A DNA stretch of 45,085 nucleotides. Origin: Mycobacteriales bacterium (lineage in GTDB: Bacteria; Actinomycetota; Actinomycetes; Mycobacteriales; QHCD01). Shown here in pieces: positions 697-43,364 of the stretch. Position numbers and translations under genes: made by a program. The notes beneath the pieces are model-generated. The model did not search any database. It was given only the letters and a program-made list of their open reading frames with translations, and had not been told where the DNA came from. The stretch covers positions 1-45,085 of the forward strand of contig DASXJE010000068.1 of the NCBI GenBank assembly GCA_036497565.1, in the 5' to 3' direction. How positions within the stretch are numbered: position 1 is the stretch's first letter; each line of letters begins with the position of its first letter.

Positions 697-748
697 TGAT
701 CGTGATCGGAAAGAGCCGCGGAACGCCGTACAAATCCGATCACGATCA
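697..748. repeat. Dispersed palindromic element, copy 1
   Basis: Arms TGATCGTGATCGGA (697-710) and TCCGATCACGATCA (735-748) are exact inverted copies around a 24-base centre holding AGCCGCGGAACGCCGT. Copy 2 at 43301-43364 has the same arms and nearly the same centre. It lies between two convergent genes, so the RNA hairpin could end transcription from both sides. Its presence at two distant loci points to a repeated extragenic palindrome or a small non-autonomous element. Confidence 0.85.
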
Positions 749-3259: not shown

Positions 3260-4096
3260 GTGGGTGTGCTGCAGCGCTTCGAGCAACGGCTCGAAGGCCT
3301 CGTGGGTGGCACCTTCGCGCGCCTGTTCAAGGGCCAGGTCGAGCCGGTCGAGGTCGCGAAGGCGCTCCAGCGTGAGGCCGAGGACAAGAAGGCCATCCTC
3401 GGCGCCAACCGGGTCCTCGTGCCCAACCGCTACACCGTCGAGCTCGGCCCGGCCGATCACGACCGGCTCTCCCCATGGGCCGGGCAGCTGACCCGCACCC
3501 TCGCCGAGATGGTCCAGGAGTACGTCGACGACGAGGGCTGGTCGGCCTACGGCGACATCGAGGTGGCCTTCGCCCGCAACGATGCGCTGCGCACCGGGGT
3601 GTTCCGCGTGAGCAGCGACGTCGACGTCGACGTCGGCCCCCGCCGGCGTCCGCACGACTCACTCTCCATGCCGGCCGTGCCGAGCGAATCCCCGAGCCAG
3701 CCCGCCGGCACGCCGCGCAGCGCACCCGGTCCGGCACCCACCCAGGCCGTGCCGCCCGTGCCGGCCCAGACACCGGCCGCGGCGACCGCCGCTCCCCGCC
3801 GGCCGACCCCGTCGCCCGTGCTGATCGTCGATGACTCCGGCCGGCGGTTTCCGGTGCGGCCCGGCTCGACCCTCATCGGCCGCGGGCAGGACGCCGACAT
3901 CCGGCTCGCCGACACCGGCGTCTCCCGCCGCCACGCGGTGGTCCGGTACGACGGCCAGGCGGTGCTGATCGAGGACCTCGGCTCCACCAACGGGACGCTG
4001 GTCAACGGCCAGCGGGTGCGCACCTCCCGGCTCCAGCAGGGCGACGTGATCCGGGCCGGTCACAGCGTCATCGTCTTCCGGATCGAACCGTCGTGA
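3260..4096 (+). CDS. fhaA: FhaA, DUF3662 and FHA domain protein
   Basis: 278 residues. The N-terminal DUF3662 domain (about 1-120) begins with the characteristic MGVLQRFEQRLE. A Pro/Ala-rich linker (about 135-185) follows, then an FHA domain (about 187-276) with phosphothreonine-binding signature residues G207-R208, S222-R-R-H225 and N244 in GSTNG. In mycobacteria FhaA is a substrate and partner of PknB and helps control lipid II flipping through MviN and hence wall synthesis. The GTG start is preceded by GGAGG at 7-nt spacing. It is the first gene of the operon; fhaB starts 22 nt downstream. Length and domain order are as usual for the family. Confidence 0.95.
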   Translation: MGVLQRFEQRLEGLVGGTFARLFKGQVEPVEVAKALQREAEDKKAILGANRVLVPNRYTVELGPADHDRLSPWAGQLTRTLAEMVQEYVDDEGWSAYGDIEVAFARNDALRTGVFRVSSDVDVDVGPRRRPHDSLSMPAVPSESPSQPAGTPRSAPGPAPTQAVPPVPAQTPAAATAAPRRPTPSPVLIVDDSGRRFPVRPGSTLIGRGQDADIRLADTGVSRRHAVVRYDGQAVLIEDLGSTNGTLVNGQRVRTSRLQQGDVIRAGHSVIVFRIEPS

Positions 4097-4118
4097 CCCC
4101 GCCGAGGCAGGGGCCGCG

Positions 4119-4592
4119 ATGAACGCCCCCATCGTCATCCAGGCCATGCGCTTCGGCTTCCTCGTGCTGCTCTGGCTCTTCGTCTACGCGGCACTGCGGG
4201 TGGTCCGGTCCGACGTCTTCGGCCACTCCCGGCCGCGGCCGGCACCGAGTACGGCGCGGACGACGCAGGCCAGCAAGGCCAAGCCGAAGAAGCGCGGGCG
4301 GGCCGCGCGCCAGCTCATCGTGACGGCCGGTTCGCTGCAGGGCACCAAGATCCGCCTCGACGAGCAGCCGGTCACGATCGGGCGTGCCAACGACTCCACC
4401 CTGGTCCTGACCGACGACTACACGAGTTCCCGGCACGCCCGGCTCACCGCCCGCGACAACGACTGGTACGTCGAGGATCTCGGCTCGACCAACGGCACCT
4501 ACCTCGACCGGACGAAGGTGGCCGGGCCGACCCTGGTGCGCCCCGGCGTACCGATCCGGATCGGCAAAACGGTCCTCGAGTTGCGCTCATGA
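4119..4592 (+). CDS. fhaB: FhaB/FipA, membrane-anchored FHA domain protein
   Basis: 157 residues. A single transmembrane helix lies near the N-terminus (about 12-30), followed by a basic linker (KAKPKKRGRAARQ) and a C-terminal FHA domain (about 65-155) with GR88-89, SSRH103-106 and N125 in LGSTNGT. In mycobacteria the protein is phosphorylated by PknA/PknB and links kinase signalling to the divisome. It sits between fhaA and pstP as in other actinobacteria. The assigned ATG follows a GAGGCAGGGG stretch. Nothing appears degenerate. Confidence 0.95.
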   Translation: MNAPIVIQAMRFGFLVLLWLFVYAALRVVRSDVFGHSRPRPAPSTARTTQASKAKPKKRGRAARQLIVTAGSLQGTKIRLDEQPVTIGRANDSTLVLTDDYTSSRHARLTARDNDWYVEDLGSTNGTYLDRTKVAGPTLVRPGVPIRIGKTVLELRS

Positions 4593-4632
4593 TCTCGACG
4601 GCCCCGTCGTCCGAGCCGTCCCGGAGTGCCCA

Positions 4633-6030
4633 GTGACCCTGGCACTGCGATACGCGGTGCGGTCCGATCGCGGCCTCACCCGCAGCAACAACGAGGATTC
4701 GGTCTACGCCGGTCCGCGGCTGCTCGCCGTGGCCGACGGCATGGGCGGCCACGTCGGCGGGGCGGAGGCGAGCCGCACGGTGATCGCGGCGATCACCCCG
4801 CTGGACGACGACAACCCGCACGGCGATCTCATCTCGCAGCTGCGCGATGCGGTCGACGGCGCCAACGCCGACCTGCGCCAGGTCGTCGCGGCGAAGCCCG
4901 AGCTCGACGGCATGGGCACCACCTTGACCGCCATCCTCTTCGCCGGCAGCCGTCTCGGTCTGGTGCACGTCGGCGACTCCCGCGGCTATCTGCTGCGCGG
5001 CGACCAGCTCGCGCCCATCACCCGCGACCACACGTTCGTGCAGTCGCTGGTCGACGAGGGCCGGCTCACGGCCGAGGAGGCGAGCACCCACCCGCAGCGC
5101 TCACTCATCCTGCAGGCCCTGACCGGCCGCGAGGTGGAGCCCGACCTGTCCATCCGCGAGGCCCGCCTCGGCGACCGCTACCTGATCTGCAGCGACGGCC
5201 TGTCCGACGTCGTCTCGGCCGAGACCATGGTCGAGGCGCTGCGGATCGAAGACCCGCATGGGGCCGCCGACCGGCTGGTCGAGCTCGCCCTGCGCGGCGG
5301 CGGCCCCGACAACATCACCTGCATCGTGGCCGACGTGATCGACGTCGAGTACGGCGACGACGAGCCGGTCGTCGACGGCGCGGCCGGCACCGGCGGACGC
5401 CGACGCCCACTGAGGCCCGACAGCGCAGCGGCGCGGGCCGCGATGACCGAGGCGGCGGCCGCCCCGCCGGACGACGACGGGCCCTCGGGTCCGGACGACG
5501 ACGCGGACGACGAAGATGAGCCGCCGCGCCGGAGTCGCGCCCGGCGCAGGGTCGTGATCGGCTTGGCCGTGCTCATCGTCCTCGCCGGAGGCCTCTTCGG
5601 CTTCTACCGGTGGACCCAGACGCAGTATTTCGTCGGCGTGCAGGGCAACCGGGTCGCGGTCTACCGCGGTCTGCACGTCTCGCTCGCCGGGCTGCGGCTC
5701 TACCACCGGGTGGACACCAGCGCCCTGCGCCGCCAGGACCTGGTGCCGGTGGCCCGCAACCAGGTCGACAGTGGCATCAGCGCCGACAGTCGCGGGCAGG
5801 CCGACGCGATCCTCGCCAACCTGGTCAGCAACCAGACGCTCCCGCCCTGTCCGAAGCCGACCCCGAGTCCCACACCCACGCCGCGGCCGACACCGAGCGC
5901 GCGGTCCACCAAGCACACCCCGCCGGCCCGGTCGGGCCGACCCACCCCGAAGTCGACACCGACCCGCACCCCCTCGCCCAGCCCCGCGGTGCCGCTCCCC
6001 ACCCAGGTGCGCGGGAGGGATTGCCGATGA
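4633..6030 (+). CDS. pstP: PstP, PP2C-family serine/threonine protein phosphatase
   Basis: 465 residues. The cytoplasmic PPM phosphatase domain (about 5-238) shows the metal-binding aspartates: D35 in ADGMGG, D115 in GDSRG, D188 in CSDGLSD and D226 in GGGPDN. An acidic linker (about 275-297) and an Arg cluster precede a single transmembrane helix (about 305-325); the extracellular part ends in a Pro/Ser/Thr-rich tail. PstP removes phosphate from PknB and its substrates, so it is the off-switch of this operon's kinase. The GTG at 4633 fits the conserved N-terminus. The stop overlaps the rodA start by 3 bases (ATGA). Confidence 0.96.
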   Translation: MTLALRYAVRSDRGLTRSNNEDSVYAGPRLLAVADGMGGHVGGAEASRTVIAAITPLDDDNPHGDLISQLRDAVDGANADLRQVVAAKPELDGMGTTLTAILFAGSRLGLVHVGDSRGYLLRGDQLAPITRDHTFVQSLVDEGRLTAEEASTHPQRSLILQALTGREVEPDLSIREARLGDRYLICSDGLSDVVSAETMVEALRIEDPHGAADRLVELALRGGGPDNITCIVADVIDVEYGDDEPVVDGAAGTGGRRRPLRPDSAAARAAMTEAAAAPPDDDGPSGPDDDADDEDEPPRRSRARRRVVIGLAVLIVLAGGLFGFYRWTQTQYFVGVQGNRVAVYRGLHVSLAGLRLYHRVDTSALRRQDLVPVARNQVDSGISADSRGQADAILANLVSNQTLPPCPKPTPSPTPTPRPTPSARSTKHTPPARSGRPTPKSTPTRTPSPSPAVPLPTQVRGRDCR

Positions 6031-7424
6031 CCACGGCGATCCGCCAGGTGCCCCAGCGGCGCGGGGTCGAGTTGGCGATGCTGCTCTTCGCGGTCCTCGC
6101 CGTCGTGGCCGCCGACGCGATCGTGGATGAAAACACCCGGGGCCACCTCGAGAAGGACATCGTCTATTACGGCGTCGGGTTCGCGGTCATCTGGCTGATC
6201 GCCCACGTCGTGGTGCGCCTCGTCGCGCCGTACGCCGATCCGTTGCTGCTGCCCGCCGTCGCGCTGCTCAACGGTCTGGGTCTGGTGCTCATCCACCGGC
6301 TCGACTTCGCTGCCGAGGAGCAGGCGAGGCAGAGTGGTCAGCCGGTGCCGTCGTCGGACGCCCGGCTGCAGATCGTGTGGACCTGCATCGGATTGGCGTT
6401 GTTCATCCTCGTCCTGGTCGTCGTCCGCAACCACCGGGTGCTCTCCCGCTACGCCTACACCCTGGCCCTGGCCGGCCTCCTGCTTCTGGTGCTGCCCGCC
6501 GTGCTGCCGGCCCGGTTCAGCGAAGTCAACGGCGCCCGGGTCTGGATCCGGGTGGCCGGCTTCTCGATCCAGCCGGGCGAGTTCGCCAAGCTGACGTTGA
6601 TCATCTTCTTCGCCAGCTACCTCGTGGCCAAACGCGACGTGCTGTCCCTGGCCAGCCGCCGGGTCCTCGGCATCGACCTGCCGCGCGGCCGCGACCTCGG
6701 CCCGGTCCTGGTCGGCTGGGTGATCAGCCTGCTGATCCTGGTGCGGGAAAACGACCTGGGTCAGTCACTGCTGCTCTTCGGCCTGTTCGTCGTGATGCTC
6801 TACGTCGCCACCGAACGCACCTCCTGGCTGCTGATCGGTATCGTGCTGTTCGTCGGCGGCGCCTACACGGCGTACATCGCATTCGCACACGTGCAGGAGC
6901 GGGTCGAGATCTGGCTGCACCCGTTCAAGTACCAGGCCGACCAGGGCTACCAGATCGTGCAGGCGTTGTTCGGTCTGGGCACCGGCGGTCTCTTCGGGAC
7001 CGGTCTGGGTGCCGGACGTCCGGAGACCGTGCCGTTCGCGGCGACCGACTTCATCGTGTCCACGGTCGGAGAGGAGCTCGGGATGTTCGGCCTGGTCGCG
7101 ATCCTGGTGCTCTACGCCGTGATCTCGATCCGCGGCTTCCGGATCGGCCTCGCCGTGCGCGACCCGTTCGGCAAGCTGCTCGCCACCGGGCTGGCCTTCT
7201 CCTTCGGCCTGCAGGTCTTCATCATCGTCGGCGGGGTCACCAAGCTGATCCCGCTCACCGGCCTGACGACCCCGTTCCTCTCCTACGGCGGGTCGTCGCT
7301 GGTGGCCAACTTCGCGCTCATCGCCCTGCTGCTGCGCATCTCCGACGCGGCCCGCCGGCCCGGGTCCGAGCCGGCCCCGCGGACGCCGACCGCGGAGGCG
7401 GCGACCGAGGTGGTGCGTCGATGA
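6027..7424 (+). CDS. rodA: RodA/FtsW-type SEDS peptidoglycan polymerase
   Basis: 465 residues, about ten membrane segments. SEDS proteins polymerise lipid II into glycan strands together with a class B PBP. Family signatures: WIRVAGFSIQPGEFAKL (173-189), ENDLGQSLL (241-249), the TDFI motif with the candidate catalytic aspartate D341 followed by VGEELG, and the C-terminal GLTTPFLSYGGSS. The start is the ATG at 6027 with GGGAGG at 6013-6018 and ATGA overlap with pstP; the longer upstream frame is only read-through of pstP sequence. The next gene, pbpA, encodes the expected partner and again overlaps by 4 bases, so the two are translationally coupled. Confidence 0.96.
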   Translation: MTTAIRQVPQRRGVELAMLLFAVLAVVAADAIVDENTRGHLEKDIVYYGVGFAVIWLIAHVVVRLVAPYADPLLLPAVALLNGLGLVLIHRLDFAAEEQARQSGQPVPSSDARLQIVWTCIGLALFILVLVVVRNHRVLSRYAYTLALAGLLLLVLPAVLPARFSEVNGARVWIRVAGFSIQPGEFAKLTLIIFFASYLVAKRDVLSLASRRVLGIDLPRGRDLGPVLVGWVISLLILVRENDLGQSLLLFGLFVVMLYVATERTSWLLIGIVLFVGGAYTAYIAFAHVQERVEIWLHPFKYQADQGYQIVQALFGLGTGGLFGTGLGAGRPETVPFAATDFIVSTVGEELGMFGLVAILVLYAVISIRGFRIGLAVRDPFGKLLATGLAFSFGLQVFIIVGGVTKLIPLTGLTTPFLSYGGSSLVANFALIALLLRISDAARRPGSEPAPRTPTAEAATEVVRR

Positions 7425-8884
7425 ACAAGCCGATCCGCCGCATCGTGGTCGCCGTCCTCGTCCTGTTCGGCGCGCTCATCGCCAACCTCACCTACGTTCA
7501 GTTCGTCGAGGCCAACTCGCTGGCCACCAACCCGGCCAACTCCCGGGTGCTGCTCGGCGAATACGAGCACCCGCGCGGCAACATCGTCGCCGACCAGGTC
7601 GCGATCGCCTCGTCGAAGGCGACCAACGACCGGCTGAAGTATCTGCGTACCTACTCCCAGGGCCAGGTCTTCGCGCCGACGACCGGCTTCTATTCGCTGG
7701 TCTACGGACCGGCCGGCATCGAACGGGCCGAGAACAGCGTGCTGGCCGGCACCGACGACCGGCTCGCGCTGCGCCGGCTCTCCGACCTCTTCACCGGCCG
7801 CGACCCCAAGGGCGGCAACGTCGTCCTGACGATCTCGCGCAAGGCGCAGGAGACGGCCTACGAGGCGATGGCCAAACAGACCGGCGCGGTGGTCGCACTC
7901 GACCCGCGCACCGGTGCGATCCTGGCCATGGTGAGTACGCCGTCCTACAACCCCAACCTGCTGTCGTCGCACGATCCGGACAAGATCCGGGCGGCGTACA
8001 ACCGGTTGATCAACGCACCGGGCGACCCGCTGCTCGACAAGGCGATCGCGCAGACCTACCCGCCGGGATCGACGTTCAAGACCGTGATCGCCGCGGCCGC
8101 CTTGAAGGCGGGCCGCACCCCGCAGACCCAGCTCCAGGCGCCTACCGCGCTGACACTGCCGCAGACCAGCCACCAGCTGCACAACTTCGACGGCGAGCAG
8201 TGCGGCAACGGCCAGACCGACAGCATGATCGACGCGCTGACGATCTCCTGCAACACCGCCTTCGCCAAGCTCGGCATGGACCTCGGCGAGAAGGCGGTCC
8301 GGCAGCAGGCGGAGGCCTTCGGCATCGACGATCAGAGCTTCCAGATGCCGCTGACCGTCGCGGGGAGCAGCATCGGCGACATCCCGAGCGCCGCCGCGTT
8401 GGCGCTGTCCTCGATCGGCCAGCAGGACGTGCGACTCACCCCGCTCCAGGCGGCGATGATCGCGTCGGCGATCGCCAACAAGGGCGAGCTGATGTCGCCG
8501 TACCTGGTCAAGCAGATCCAGGCCCCGGACCTCACCGTCGTCGACACCACCAAGCCGCAGTCCAAGGGCCAGGCGGTGTCGCCGAAGGTGGCCGGTGAGC
8601 TGACCACGATGATGAAGAGCGTCGTCGACAACGGCACCGGCAAGCCGGCGCAGATCCCCGGCGTGCAGGTCGCCGGCAAGACCGGCACCGCCGACAACGC
8701 GCCCGGCAAGGCGCCGCACGCCTGGTTCATCGGCTTCGCACCGGCCAACAACCCGAAGGTGGCGGTCGCGGTCATCATCGAGCACGGTGGTGTCGCCGGC
8801 AACGAGACCACCGGTGGTCTGGCGGCCGCTCCGGTCGGCAAGGCCGTCATGCAGGCGGTCCTCTCGCAGCGGGGTGGTCACTGA
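7421..8884 (+). CDS. pbpA: PbpA, class B penicillin-binding protein (D,D-transpeptidase)
   Basis: 487 residues. An N-terminal signal anchor (about 8-27) leads to an extracytoplasmic part. The transpeptidase active site is complete: S217-TFK in PPGSTFKT, S276-C-N278, and K420-T-G-T in VAGKTGT. The N-terminal dimerisation region is short, as in actinobacterial PbpA. It cross-links peptidoglycan made by the adjacent RodA, and its phosphorylation by PknB is established in mycobacteria. ATG overlaps the rodA stop; its own stop overlaps the pknB start (TGATG). Confidence 0.96.
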   Translation: MNKPIRRIVVAVLVLFGALIANLTYVQFVEANSLATNPANSRVLLGEYEHPRGNIVADQVAIASSKATNDRLKYLRTYSQGQVFAPTTGFYSLVYGPAGIERAENSVLAGTDDRLALRRLSDLFTGRDPKGGNVVLTISRKAQETAYEAMAKQTGAVVALDPRTGAILAMVSTPSYNPNLLSSHDPDKIRAAYNRLINAPGDPLLDKAIAQTYPPGSTFKTVIAAAALKAGRTPQTQLQAPTALTLPQTSHQLHNFDGEQCGNGQTDSMIDALTISCNTAFAKLGMDLGEKAVRQQAEAFGIDDQSFQMPLTVAGSSIGDIPSAAALALSSIGQQDVRLTPLQAAMIASAIANKGELMSPYLVKQIQAPDLTVVDTTKPQSKGQAVSPKVAGELTTMMKSVVDNGTGKPAQIPGVQVAGKTGTADNAPGKAPHAWFIGFAPANNPKVAVAVIIEHGGVAGNETTGGLAAAPVGKAVMQAVLSQRGGH

Positions 8885-10677
8885 TGACCACTCCTCGCCG
8901 GCTCGGTGAGCGCTACGAACTCGGCGACCCGCTCGGGCACGGGGGCATGGCCGAGGTCCTGCACGGCCGCGACGTCCGACTCGGCCGCGAGGTCGCGATC
9001 AAGCTGCTGCGCGCCGATCTGGCCCGCGACCCGTCGTTCCAGACCCGGTTCCGTCGGGAGGCGCAGGCCTCGGCCGCGCTGAACCACCCGTCGATCGTCG
9101 CGGTCTACGACACCGGCGAGGACCGCAGCGGCCCGAACGGCGCGACGCCGTTCATCGTCATGGAATACGTCCAGGGCCGGACGCTCCGCGAGATCCTGGC
9201 CGACGAGGGCCGGCTCATGCCGGACCGCGCCATGGAGGTGACCGCCGACATCTGCGCGGCGCTCGATTTCAGCCACCGCAACGGCATCATTCACCGCGAC
9301 GTCAAGCCCGGCAACGTGATGATCACCCGCACCGGCGCCGTGAAGGTGATGGATTTCGGCATCGCCCGTGCCGTCACCGACAGCGCGGCGACCGTGACCT
9401 CGACCGCGCAGGTCATCGGTACGGCGCAGTACCTTTCCCCGGAGCAGGCCCGCGGCGAGAACGTCGATGCCCGCTCGGACGTCTACTCCGCGGGTTGTCT
9501 GCTCTACGAATTGCTCAGCGGCTCGCCGCCGTTCACCGGCGACTCCCCGGTCGCGGTCGCCTACCAGCACGTGCGTGAGAACCCGAACCCGCCCAGCTCG
9601 CTCAACCCCGACGTGTCCGCGGCGGCAGACGCCATCGTGCTCAAGGCGATGGCGAAGAACCCGGCCAACCGCTACCAGAGCGCCGGCGAGATGCGCGCCG
9701 ACCTGCTGCGGGCGACCTCCGGCCGCCCGGTGCTCGCCGAACCGGTGCTCTCCGACGACGACCGCACCACCGTTCTCGGTGACACCGACACCGAGTCCGC
9801 GGCCGCCGCGGCGGGGCGGCGACGACGGCGCACCATCGGCTTCGCGCTGCTCGCGCTGCTGGTGATCGGGGTGATCGTCGCCGGCGCGCTGCTCATCCCG
9901 AAGCTGCTGGGCAGCGACGCCGACCAGTCCACCGTCCCGTCGCTGACCTCGCTCACCCGCAGCCAGGCGCAGGACCGGCTCAAGGCCAACGGCCTCAAGC
10001 TCGGCAAGGTCACCCCGCTCGCCTCCGACCCGACCCAGAAGGGCAAGGTCCTGACGCAGAGCGTGTCGCCCGGCACCAACGTCAACCGGGGCAGCGCGGT
10101 CAACGTGCAGATCGGGAGCGGTCCGGCGACCACCGCCGTACCGCCGCTCAAGGGCCTCTCGCTGGCTGCCGCGCGACGTGCCCTGGCCGCCGCACATCTC
10201 AAGGTCGGCGGCCCGATCTCCCAGGCGAGTACGCAGGCCCAGGGCACCGTGCTGGACAGCCAGCCGCCGCAGGGTCAGAACGTCGCGCCGGGCAGCACCA
10301 TCACGCTGATCGTGTCCAGCGGCAAGGTCAACGTGCCCAGCGTCCTCGGCAAGACCGACGCGCAGGCGCACCAGATCCTCGCCAACCGCGGCTTCACCAA
10401 CGTCAACAGCGTCACCCAGGTGGGCAGCGGCACCCCCGGCACCGTGATCAACCAGAACCCGGCCGGTGGCACCAATGCCGGCCCGGCCACCGCGATCACG
10501 CTGACCATCGACCAGGCACCGCCCAGCCCCACGCCGAGCCCCACGCCCAGTCCCACCCCGAGCCAGGGGCCGAGCCCGACGCCCTCCCCGACCGCGACAT
10601 CGACCACGAGCGCGCCGGCGAGTCAGTCGGCCAGCCCGAGTGCGGGCTCCTCGGCGAGCCAGAGTCCGGCCGGCTGA
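8884..10677 (+). CDS. pknB: PknB, PASTA-domain serine/threonine protein kinase
   Basis: 597 residues. The kinase domain (about 10-275) has the Gly loop GHGGMAEV, lysine K40 in VAIK, HRD (137-139), DFG (157-159) and an activation loop with T172/T174 ahead of GTAQYLSPEQARG. A juxtamembrane Arg cluster precedes a transmembrane helix (about 317-338), then three PASTA repeats (about 348-413, 415-480, 482-543) that bind muropeptides or lipid II, and a Pro/Ser/Thr-rich low-complexity tail. Related kinases carry three or four PASTA repeats. It is the last gene of the operon and meets the lipoprotein gene end-to-end with only 9 bases between. No pknA gene accompanies it, in contrast to mycobacteria. 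Confidence 0.96.
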   Translation: MTTPRRLGERYELGDPLGHGGMAEVLHGRDVRLGREVAIKLLRADLARDPSFQTRFRREAQASAALNHPSIVAVYDTGEDRSGPNGATPFIVMEYVQGRTLREILADEGRLMPDRAMEVTADICAALDFSHRNGIIHRDVKPGNVMITRTGAVKVMDFGIARAVTDSAATVTSTAQVIGTAQYLSPEQARGENVDARSDVYSAGCLLYELLSGSPPFTGDSPVAVAYQHVRENPNPPSSLNPDVSAAADAIVLKAMAKNPANRYQSAGEMRADLLRATSGRPVLAEPVLSDDDRTTVLGDTDTESAAAAAGRRRRRTIGFALLALLVIGVIVAGALLIPKLLGSDADQSTVPSLTSLTRSQAQDRLKANGLKLGKVTPLASDPTQKGKVLTQSVSPGTNVNRGSAVNVQIGSGPATTAVPPLKGLSLAAARRALAAAHLKVGGPISQASTQAQGTVLDSQPPQGQNVAPGSTITLIVSSGKVNVPSVLGKTDAQAHQILANRGFTNVNSVTQVGSGTPGTVINQNPAGGTNAGPATAITLTIDQAPPSPTPSPTPSPTPSQGPSPTPSPTATSTTSAPASQSASPSAGSSASQSPAG

Positions 10678-28890: not shown

Positions 28891-28917
28891 CCAAAACGCA
28901 CTAGGAGTGCGTTGTGG
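28891..28917 (+). terminator. Hairpin A, likely terminator of the FUSC gene
   Basis: CCAAAACGCACT-AGG-AGTGCGTTGTGG begins at the first base after the FUSC stop: a 12-bp stem with one mismatch and a 3-nt loop. It is the first of three related hairpins. There is no long U-run; the stem's own GUU-rich 3' side resembles actinobacterial terminators. Confidence 0.55.
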
Positions 28918-28941
28918 GGGCCGGCACCGGCGTGTCGCGGA

Positions 28942-28968
28942 CCAAAACGCACTCCGAGTGCGTTTTGG
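28942..28968. repeat. Hairpin B, perfect palindrome
   Basis: CCAAAACGCACT-CCG-AGTGCGTTTTGG, an exact 12-bp stem with a 3-nt loop. It shares 11-12 stem bases with hairpin A, lying 24 bases further on. Reading the same on both strands, it could stop transcription in either direction. Confidence 0.7.
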
Positions 28969-29010
28969 GCGCGCCCGGCGGGAGGTGCCCACCACGCCCG
29001 CGGCCCTGCT

Positions 29011-29041
29011 GGACAAAACCCACTAGTAGTGGGTTTTGTCC
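29011..29041. repeat. Hairpin C, perfect palindrome
   Basis: GGACAAAACCCACT-AGT-AGTGGGTTTTGTCC, an exact 14-bp stem with a 3-nt loop. It keeps the same AAAACnCACT core as hairpins A and B but with CCC in place of CGC. It ends 89 bases before the next start codon. Confidence 0.7.
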
Positions 29042-29117
29042 ACGCGGGCGGACGGGGACGGCGGACGGGGCGGACGGGGGCGGGCGGCAGGTGGCGGCGG
29101 CACGCGGTGGCGTTGGG

Positions 29118-43300: not shown

Positions 43301-43364
43301 CTTTCATGATCGTGATCGGATAAAGCCGCGAAACGCCGTCCAGATCCGATCACGATCATGAAAG
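43301..43364. repeat. Dispersed palindromic element, copy 2
   Basis: A perfect 21-bp inverted repeat, CTTTCATGATCGTGATCGGAT (arms 43301-43321 and 43344-43364, written here only from the left arm's 21 bases less flank as ATGATCGTGATCGG), encloses a 22-base centre with AAGCCGCGAAACGCCGTC. It is nearly the same as the element at 697-748 in both arms and centre. It sits between the PucR gene start and the thioesterase gene end, both on the minus strand, so it could end thioesterase transcription. Confidence 0.88.

Follow-up and report, generated by a model that had tools for sequence, protein, structure and literature searches.

REPs are classified by tag and by tyrosine transposase. The GTAG and CGTC REPs are short, many-copy intergenic palindromes and lie mostly between convergent or same-direction genes, near the 3′ end of the upstream gene; they sometimes supply its stop codon, several families occur per genome, and the CGTC REPs have no dedicated transposase (PMC3733652). 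These super-families are mainly gamma- and alpha-proteobacterial, and Di Nocera et al. (2013; PMC3733652) mention neither Mycobacterium nor Streptomyces. REPINs are inverted doublets that form hairpins and have less conserved spacers (Bertels and Rainey 2011, PMC3116915), and BIMEs are mosaics of palindromic units in which unlike units alternate in short clusters (PMC2817692). Below we compare with these systems a set of palindromic units from a Mycobacteriales genome, two of which lie near the ends of the 45,085-nucleotide stretch of DNA analyzed here (the window).

The 52-bp unit of family A

The sequence-only reading of the window had proposed that positions 697–748 and 43301–43364 have their arms and a similar centre in common, and our searches confirmed this and located neither feature elsewhere in the window. 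Copy 1, a 52-bp unit at 697–748 (core sense on the plus strand), has perfect 14-bp arms, the left one (TGATCGTGATCGGA) at 697–710 on the plus strand and the right one at 735–748 on the minus strand, around a 24-nt centre, and its stem extends to 694–751 when one T·T mismatch is allowed. The 21-bp stem ascribed to copy 2 (43301–43364, centre 22 nt) is indeed perfect, and the part of it that matches the 52-bp unit of copy 1 in register is 43307–43358, again with the core sense on the plus strand. The cores lie at 714–729 (AGCCGCGGAACGCCGT, one base from consensus) and 43324–43339 (AGCCGCGAAACGCCGT), both on the plus strand; these are the only places in the whole window where AGCCGCGRAACGCCGT is matched with 0 mismatches, and the only arms there at <3 mismatches are the four arms of these two copies.

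The two-copy observation was correct but understated. The source genome (4.8 Mb in 316 contigs, a single draft assembly that is 97.8% complete) contains 33 copies of this unit at ≤1 arm mismatch, here called family A, so the reading's own counter-case, only two copies with loops alike by chance, does not hold. Each copy measures exactly 52 bp between the arm ends, with 14-bp arms TGATCGTGATCGGA around 24 bp that contain the core GCCGCGAAACGCCG, and the consensus is CATGATCGTGATCGGA-TAAA-GCCGCGAAACGCCG-TACGA/G-A-TCCGATCACGATCATG; a nearly invariant C-A/T-G lies just outside the arms. A reversed-pattern control gave 0 matches genome-wide. The arms have 0 mismatches in 30 copies and 1 in 3, and none was found with 2–3 in the genome. 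Divergence between copies is 0.6% in the arms, 4% in the core and 45% at nine loop positions that adjoin the core. The bases at these nine occur in free combination (24 loop types among the 33 copies), so that recency alone does not account for how constant the arms are. The core AGCCGCGAAACGCCG is nearly confined to the units (1 of the 33 matches listed falls elsewhere), and arms at 0 or 1 mismatch are confined to the 52-bp units throughout the genome. The suggestion of a lineage-specific REP/MITE-like family thus holds in its REP half, with 33 intergenic copies that are absent from relatives (below), and lacks support in its MITE half, since isolated arms are lacking.

Related families and their placement

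A search of intergenic stretches brought to light family B, which has 39 copies in the source genome and the same layout, length and core as family A. Its arms are TGATC[AAGAGG]GGA rather than TGATC[GTGATC]GGA, the hexamer being changed in both arms; 33 of the 39 B copies have arms without any mismatch and the others carry one, and no A or B copy mixes the two arm types. Four stem pairs distinguish the A arms from the B arms, every one of them compensated, and among 22 distinct A/B copies, in which these 4 stem pairs have compensatory changes, 98.9% of cells pair, versus 22–55% in slid controls. Two further families, C (palindrome AAAACGCACTnnnAGTGCGTTTT) and D (palindrome AAAACCCACTnnnAGTGGGTTTT), account for 103 hairpins that mostly stand in pairs at a distance of 28 bp, with GGTCCACGACACGCCGTACGGACCGTCC-like spacers between them (layout 23+28+23 bp) whose core, CGACACGCCGTACG, is one base off the A/B core. 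A C pair and a single D hairpin, kin of family A by their core, lie in the window itself: the C element (28891–28968, minus strand) consists of a pair of AAAACGCACT...AGTGCGTTTT-type hairpins that enclose a CGACACGCCG core, read as GCGACACGCCGGT at 28926–28938 on the minus strand, and a single D hairpin (TGGACAAAACCCACTAGTAGTGGGTTTTGTCCA, strand not assigned) adjoins it at 29010–29042. Family E, with a different core, was seen in partial sequence as double palindromes TTGAACGTSACGTTCAA / ATCAACGTCACGTTGAC with GCGCTCTAGCCGC between them and CCATTCCGC...GCGGAATGG outside them, in about a dozen copies in the 1.2 Mb sampled (L039:8311, L041:1256, L044:5502, L115:9674–9989 and others). The single family of the sequence-only reading therefore stands as family A, and families B to E, including the C pair and D hairpin of the same window, had been missed. 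The hairpins are far more stable than shuffles, whether folded as RNA or as DNA.

Where do these units lie relative to genes? Genes were called with a home-made codon-usage caller, so that single distances are approximate. Fifty-eight of the 72 A and B copies lie ≤60 bp from a gene 3′ end (28/33 A; 30/39 B), and random placement in gaps puts only 8.0 ± 2.5 A copies there, versus the 28 observed. Thirteen A copies lie between convergent genes, versus 3.7 ± 1.8 at random, and five between divergent genes; C/D units have the same 3′-end tendency (20/33 in the partial sequence sampled), and none of the placed A, B or C/D units lies >49 bp within a called gene. Several A and B copies supply, with the first TGA of the unit, the stop codon of the gene beside them, and three genes terminate within a family B unit. 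The orientation of the core is random with respect to gene direction (26 sense, 19 antisense, P 0.37), for which reason we rejected a strand-specific role of the core in RNA. Elsewhere in the window, positions 3260–10677 hold a same-strand gene run that is headed by FhaA (3260–4096, the one gene of the run that was checked) and resembles an FHA/PknB-type cluster; in actinobacteria such clusters are usually near oriC.

Units also keep particular company. Those ≤300 bp apart are A with B (six times) or C with D (eight times); two units of one type never neighbor each other, and neither do members of the A/B and C/D groups. If the pairs are taken as independent, the simulated chance that all 14 of 14 neighbours fall within a group is 0.0003, and the calculated chance that, given the group, partners are always unlike is 7e-5. 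One convergent gap holds an A-B-A triple (L065:3081–3305).

In the nearest 3–12 nt, the sequence on both sides of A and B units consists of about 50–67% C and 8–14% G when read towards the hairpin, versus 40% C and 33% G in control regions after stops, and this is true of any gene context, the gene-start side included. Copy 1 in the window offers examples at 670–696 and 749–775. The folding of natural flank pairs is more favorable by 1.9 kcal/mol than that of swapped pairs. Pairing between the flanks was considered as the cause of their C-richness and set aside, since covariation is weak (190 pairs versus 179 ± 6.6, P 0.05); the C-rich flanks are thus not well explained by base pairing. Examined by eye for a target-site duplication, the family A flanks continue the palindrome (C-A/T-G) rather than repeat directly.

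Comparison with described repeats

These units resemble the GTAG/CGTC REPs in being many short extragenic palindromes (33 A, 39 B and 103 C/D) of multiple families, in lying mostly between convergent or same-direction genes, in the location of A and B downstream of genes and in supplying stop codons, and the CGTC REPs in particular in having no dedicated transposase; they differ in the untagged foot of the hairpin and in the asymmetric core that is common to families with different arms. Neither the GTAG nor the CGTC tetranucleotide is found at the hairpin end in families A, B, C or D; the tetranucleotide just before the foot is mostly a YYCA sequence in A/B (for example TCCA, TTCA or CCCA) and is GACC or GGAC in C/D. 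Like REPINs, they consist of two inverted, conserved blocks and a spacer that together form one hairpin (14+24+14 bp in A/B and, as above, longer in C/D), with fixed spacing, a variable spacer and compensatory changes; unlike REPINs, they occur in a genome that has no Y1/RAYT gene, have a spacer that is partly conserved across families and include no A singlets. They are like BIMEs in forming short clusters of alternating unlike units, and unlike them in that the clusters contain two or three units and invariably combine A with B or C with D.

The REP-associated tyrosine transposase, which the sequence-only reading had recommended looking for, did not appear: Y1_Tnp (PF01797, RAYT) has 0 matches at E ≤ 0.001 in the 97.8% complete source assembly, and a control search with the same model found matches in 5 of 14 genomes, E. 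coli included. The known REP mobilizer is therefore absent from this genome or missing from its assembly. The hairpins do not have the features of intrinsic terminators (they lack a T-tract, purines follow the stem, the loop is 22–24 nt and no terminator match falls on them), and Rfam gave no match above the gathering score.

The patterns for family A, the A/B core and the C/D hairpins were searched against about 396 further genomes of this order, one of them of the same family and none of the same genus. None of these genomes, the sole family-mate included, had a family-like copy of A, B or C/D, and five single near-matches to the A/B core pattern were taken as chance. No recurrent palindromes stood out in 311 kb of this family-mate, in an output that consisted mostly of masked N stretches. 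Family A is also absent from a collection of 84,980 species, which may omit the source genome; seven A-arm matches there are due to chance, their centres being unrelated. The A, B and C/D arms and core have no match in viral contigs, and family B has none in plasmids.

Possible origins and meaning

The above counts demonstrate the pattern itself, and we infer from the symmetrical arms and fixed length that the units spread by copying of their hairpin form. We think it probable, with some reserve, that they are REP-dimer (REPIN-like) repeats, untagged and lineage-specific, which a putative enzyme spread as hairpins and which are tolerated, or used, as bidirectional 3′-end hairpins. A unit consists of inverted arms that enclose an asymmetric, fixed-length core, so that either strand of the unit folds into a single long hairpin; multiplication would have gone through a putative enzyme that is still present or has since been lost, and units would persist just after stop codons, where a hairpin may be harmless or useful. 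Their siting and stability suggest that in transcripts from either side a unit may serve as a 3′-end hairpin, as an aid to termination or a shield against 3′ exonucleases. We count in favor of the REP-dimer reading the copy numbers, the constancy of the A arms relative to the variable loop positions, the fixed unit length, paired families, compensatory stem changes and unmixed arms, together with the 3′-end siting, stop overlap, unlike neighbors and hairpin stability, and also the published siting and stop overlap of REPs (PMC3733652) and hairpin doublets of REPINs (PMC3116915). We count against it the lack of a mobilizing enzyme, of a GTAG/CGTC tag and of any observed pair of empty and filled sites, the near-absence of decayed A copies (unusual for REPs, and also what a host-selected site would give) and the partial conservation of the spacer across different arms, unlike REPINs.

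The idea that two unrelated terminators resemble each other by chance is refuted and has practically no probability left, given 33 equal-length copies with one core versus none in the control. The units could instead be immobile and selected by the host as a bidirectional 3′-end element, a standardized terminator or a Rho-linked hairpin; in one version C-rich, G-poor RNA would enter from either side, Rho would load on it and the hairpin would protect the trimmed 3′ end. We regard this as possible but unlikely. The excess of units near gene 3′ ends and in convergent gaps, the C-rich, G-poor flanks relative to control, the better folding of natural flank pairs and the rarity of decayed A copies all fit it, but the hairpins have neither a T-tract nor a terminator-like match, a terminator needs a stem rather than 28 nearly invariant arm bases and a core, the gene-start side carries the same C-rich flanks, five A copies lie between divergent genes, and all the families are absent from relatives, which need terminators too.

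A DNA site for a sequence-specific architectural or regulatory protein, of the matS or parS sort with two half-sites around a core, would agree with arms that are strongly conserved while nine loop positions vary freely and with a core orientation that is random to genes; we nonetheless consider it improbable, since A and B differ in both half-sites at once and the C/D arms are unrelated while the core is kept, so that one protein would not recognize all of them through the arms, and since strong siting at gene 3′ ends would not be expected of it. Equally doubtful is that the units are MITEs of a classical DNA transposon, with arms that are terminal inverted repeats for the transposase of a full element. 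Inverted arms, intergenic dispersal and fixed length are what such elements would have, but the absence of free A arms at 0 or 1 mismatch means that no assembled full element has such ends, the symmetry of the arms continues into the flanks without a target-site duplication apparent by eye, and the C/D arms are themselves palindromes.

To return to the REP-dimer reading, REP precedent does not account for one feature, the core that different stems have in common. Somewhat speculatively, and we would not call it likely, the core could be the real functional site, CGAMACGCCGTACG being recognized in the loop of an extruded hairpin by an enzyme other than Y1/RAYT that accepts any inverted repeat presenting it. 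If true, this would explain one loop on four stems and the joint changes of the arms, and perhaps why neighbors are always of unlike types.

The units described here are actinobacterial REP-like dimers without tag or tyrosine transposase, of several families, with interchangeable stems and one common loop motif. If they move, there is a mobilizer of a kind not yet known, whose target is indicated by the loop core; if they do not, the units form a standardized 3′-end device. Either outcome bears on how CGTC-type REPs that lack a transposase spread.
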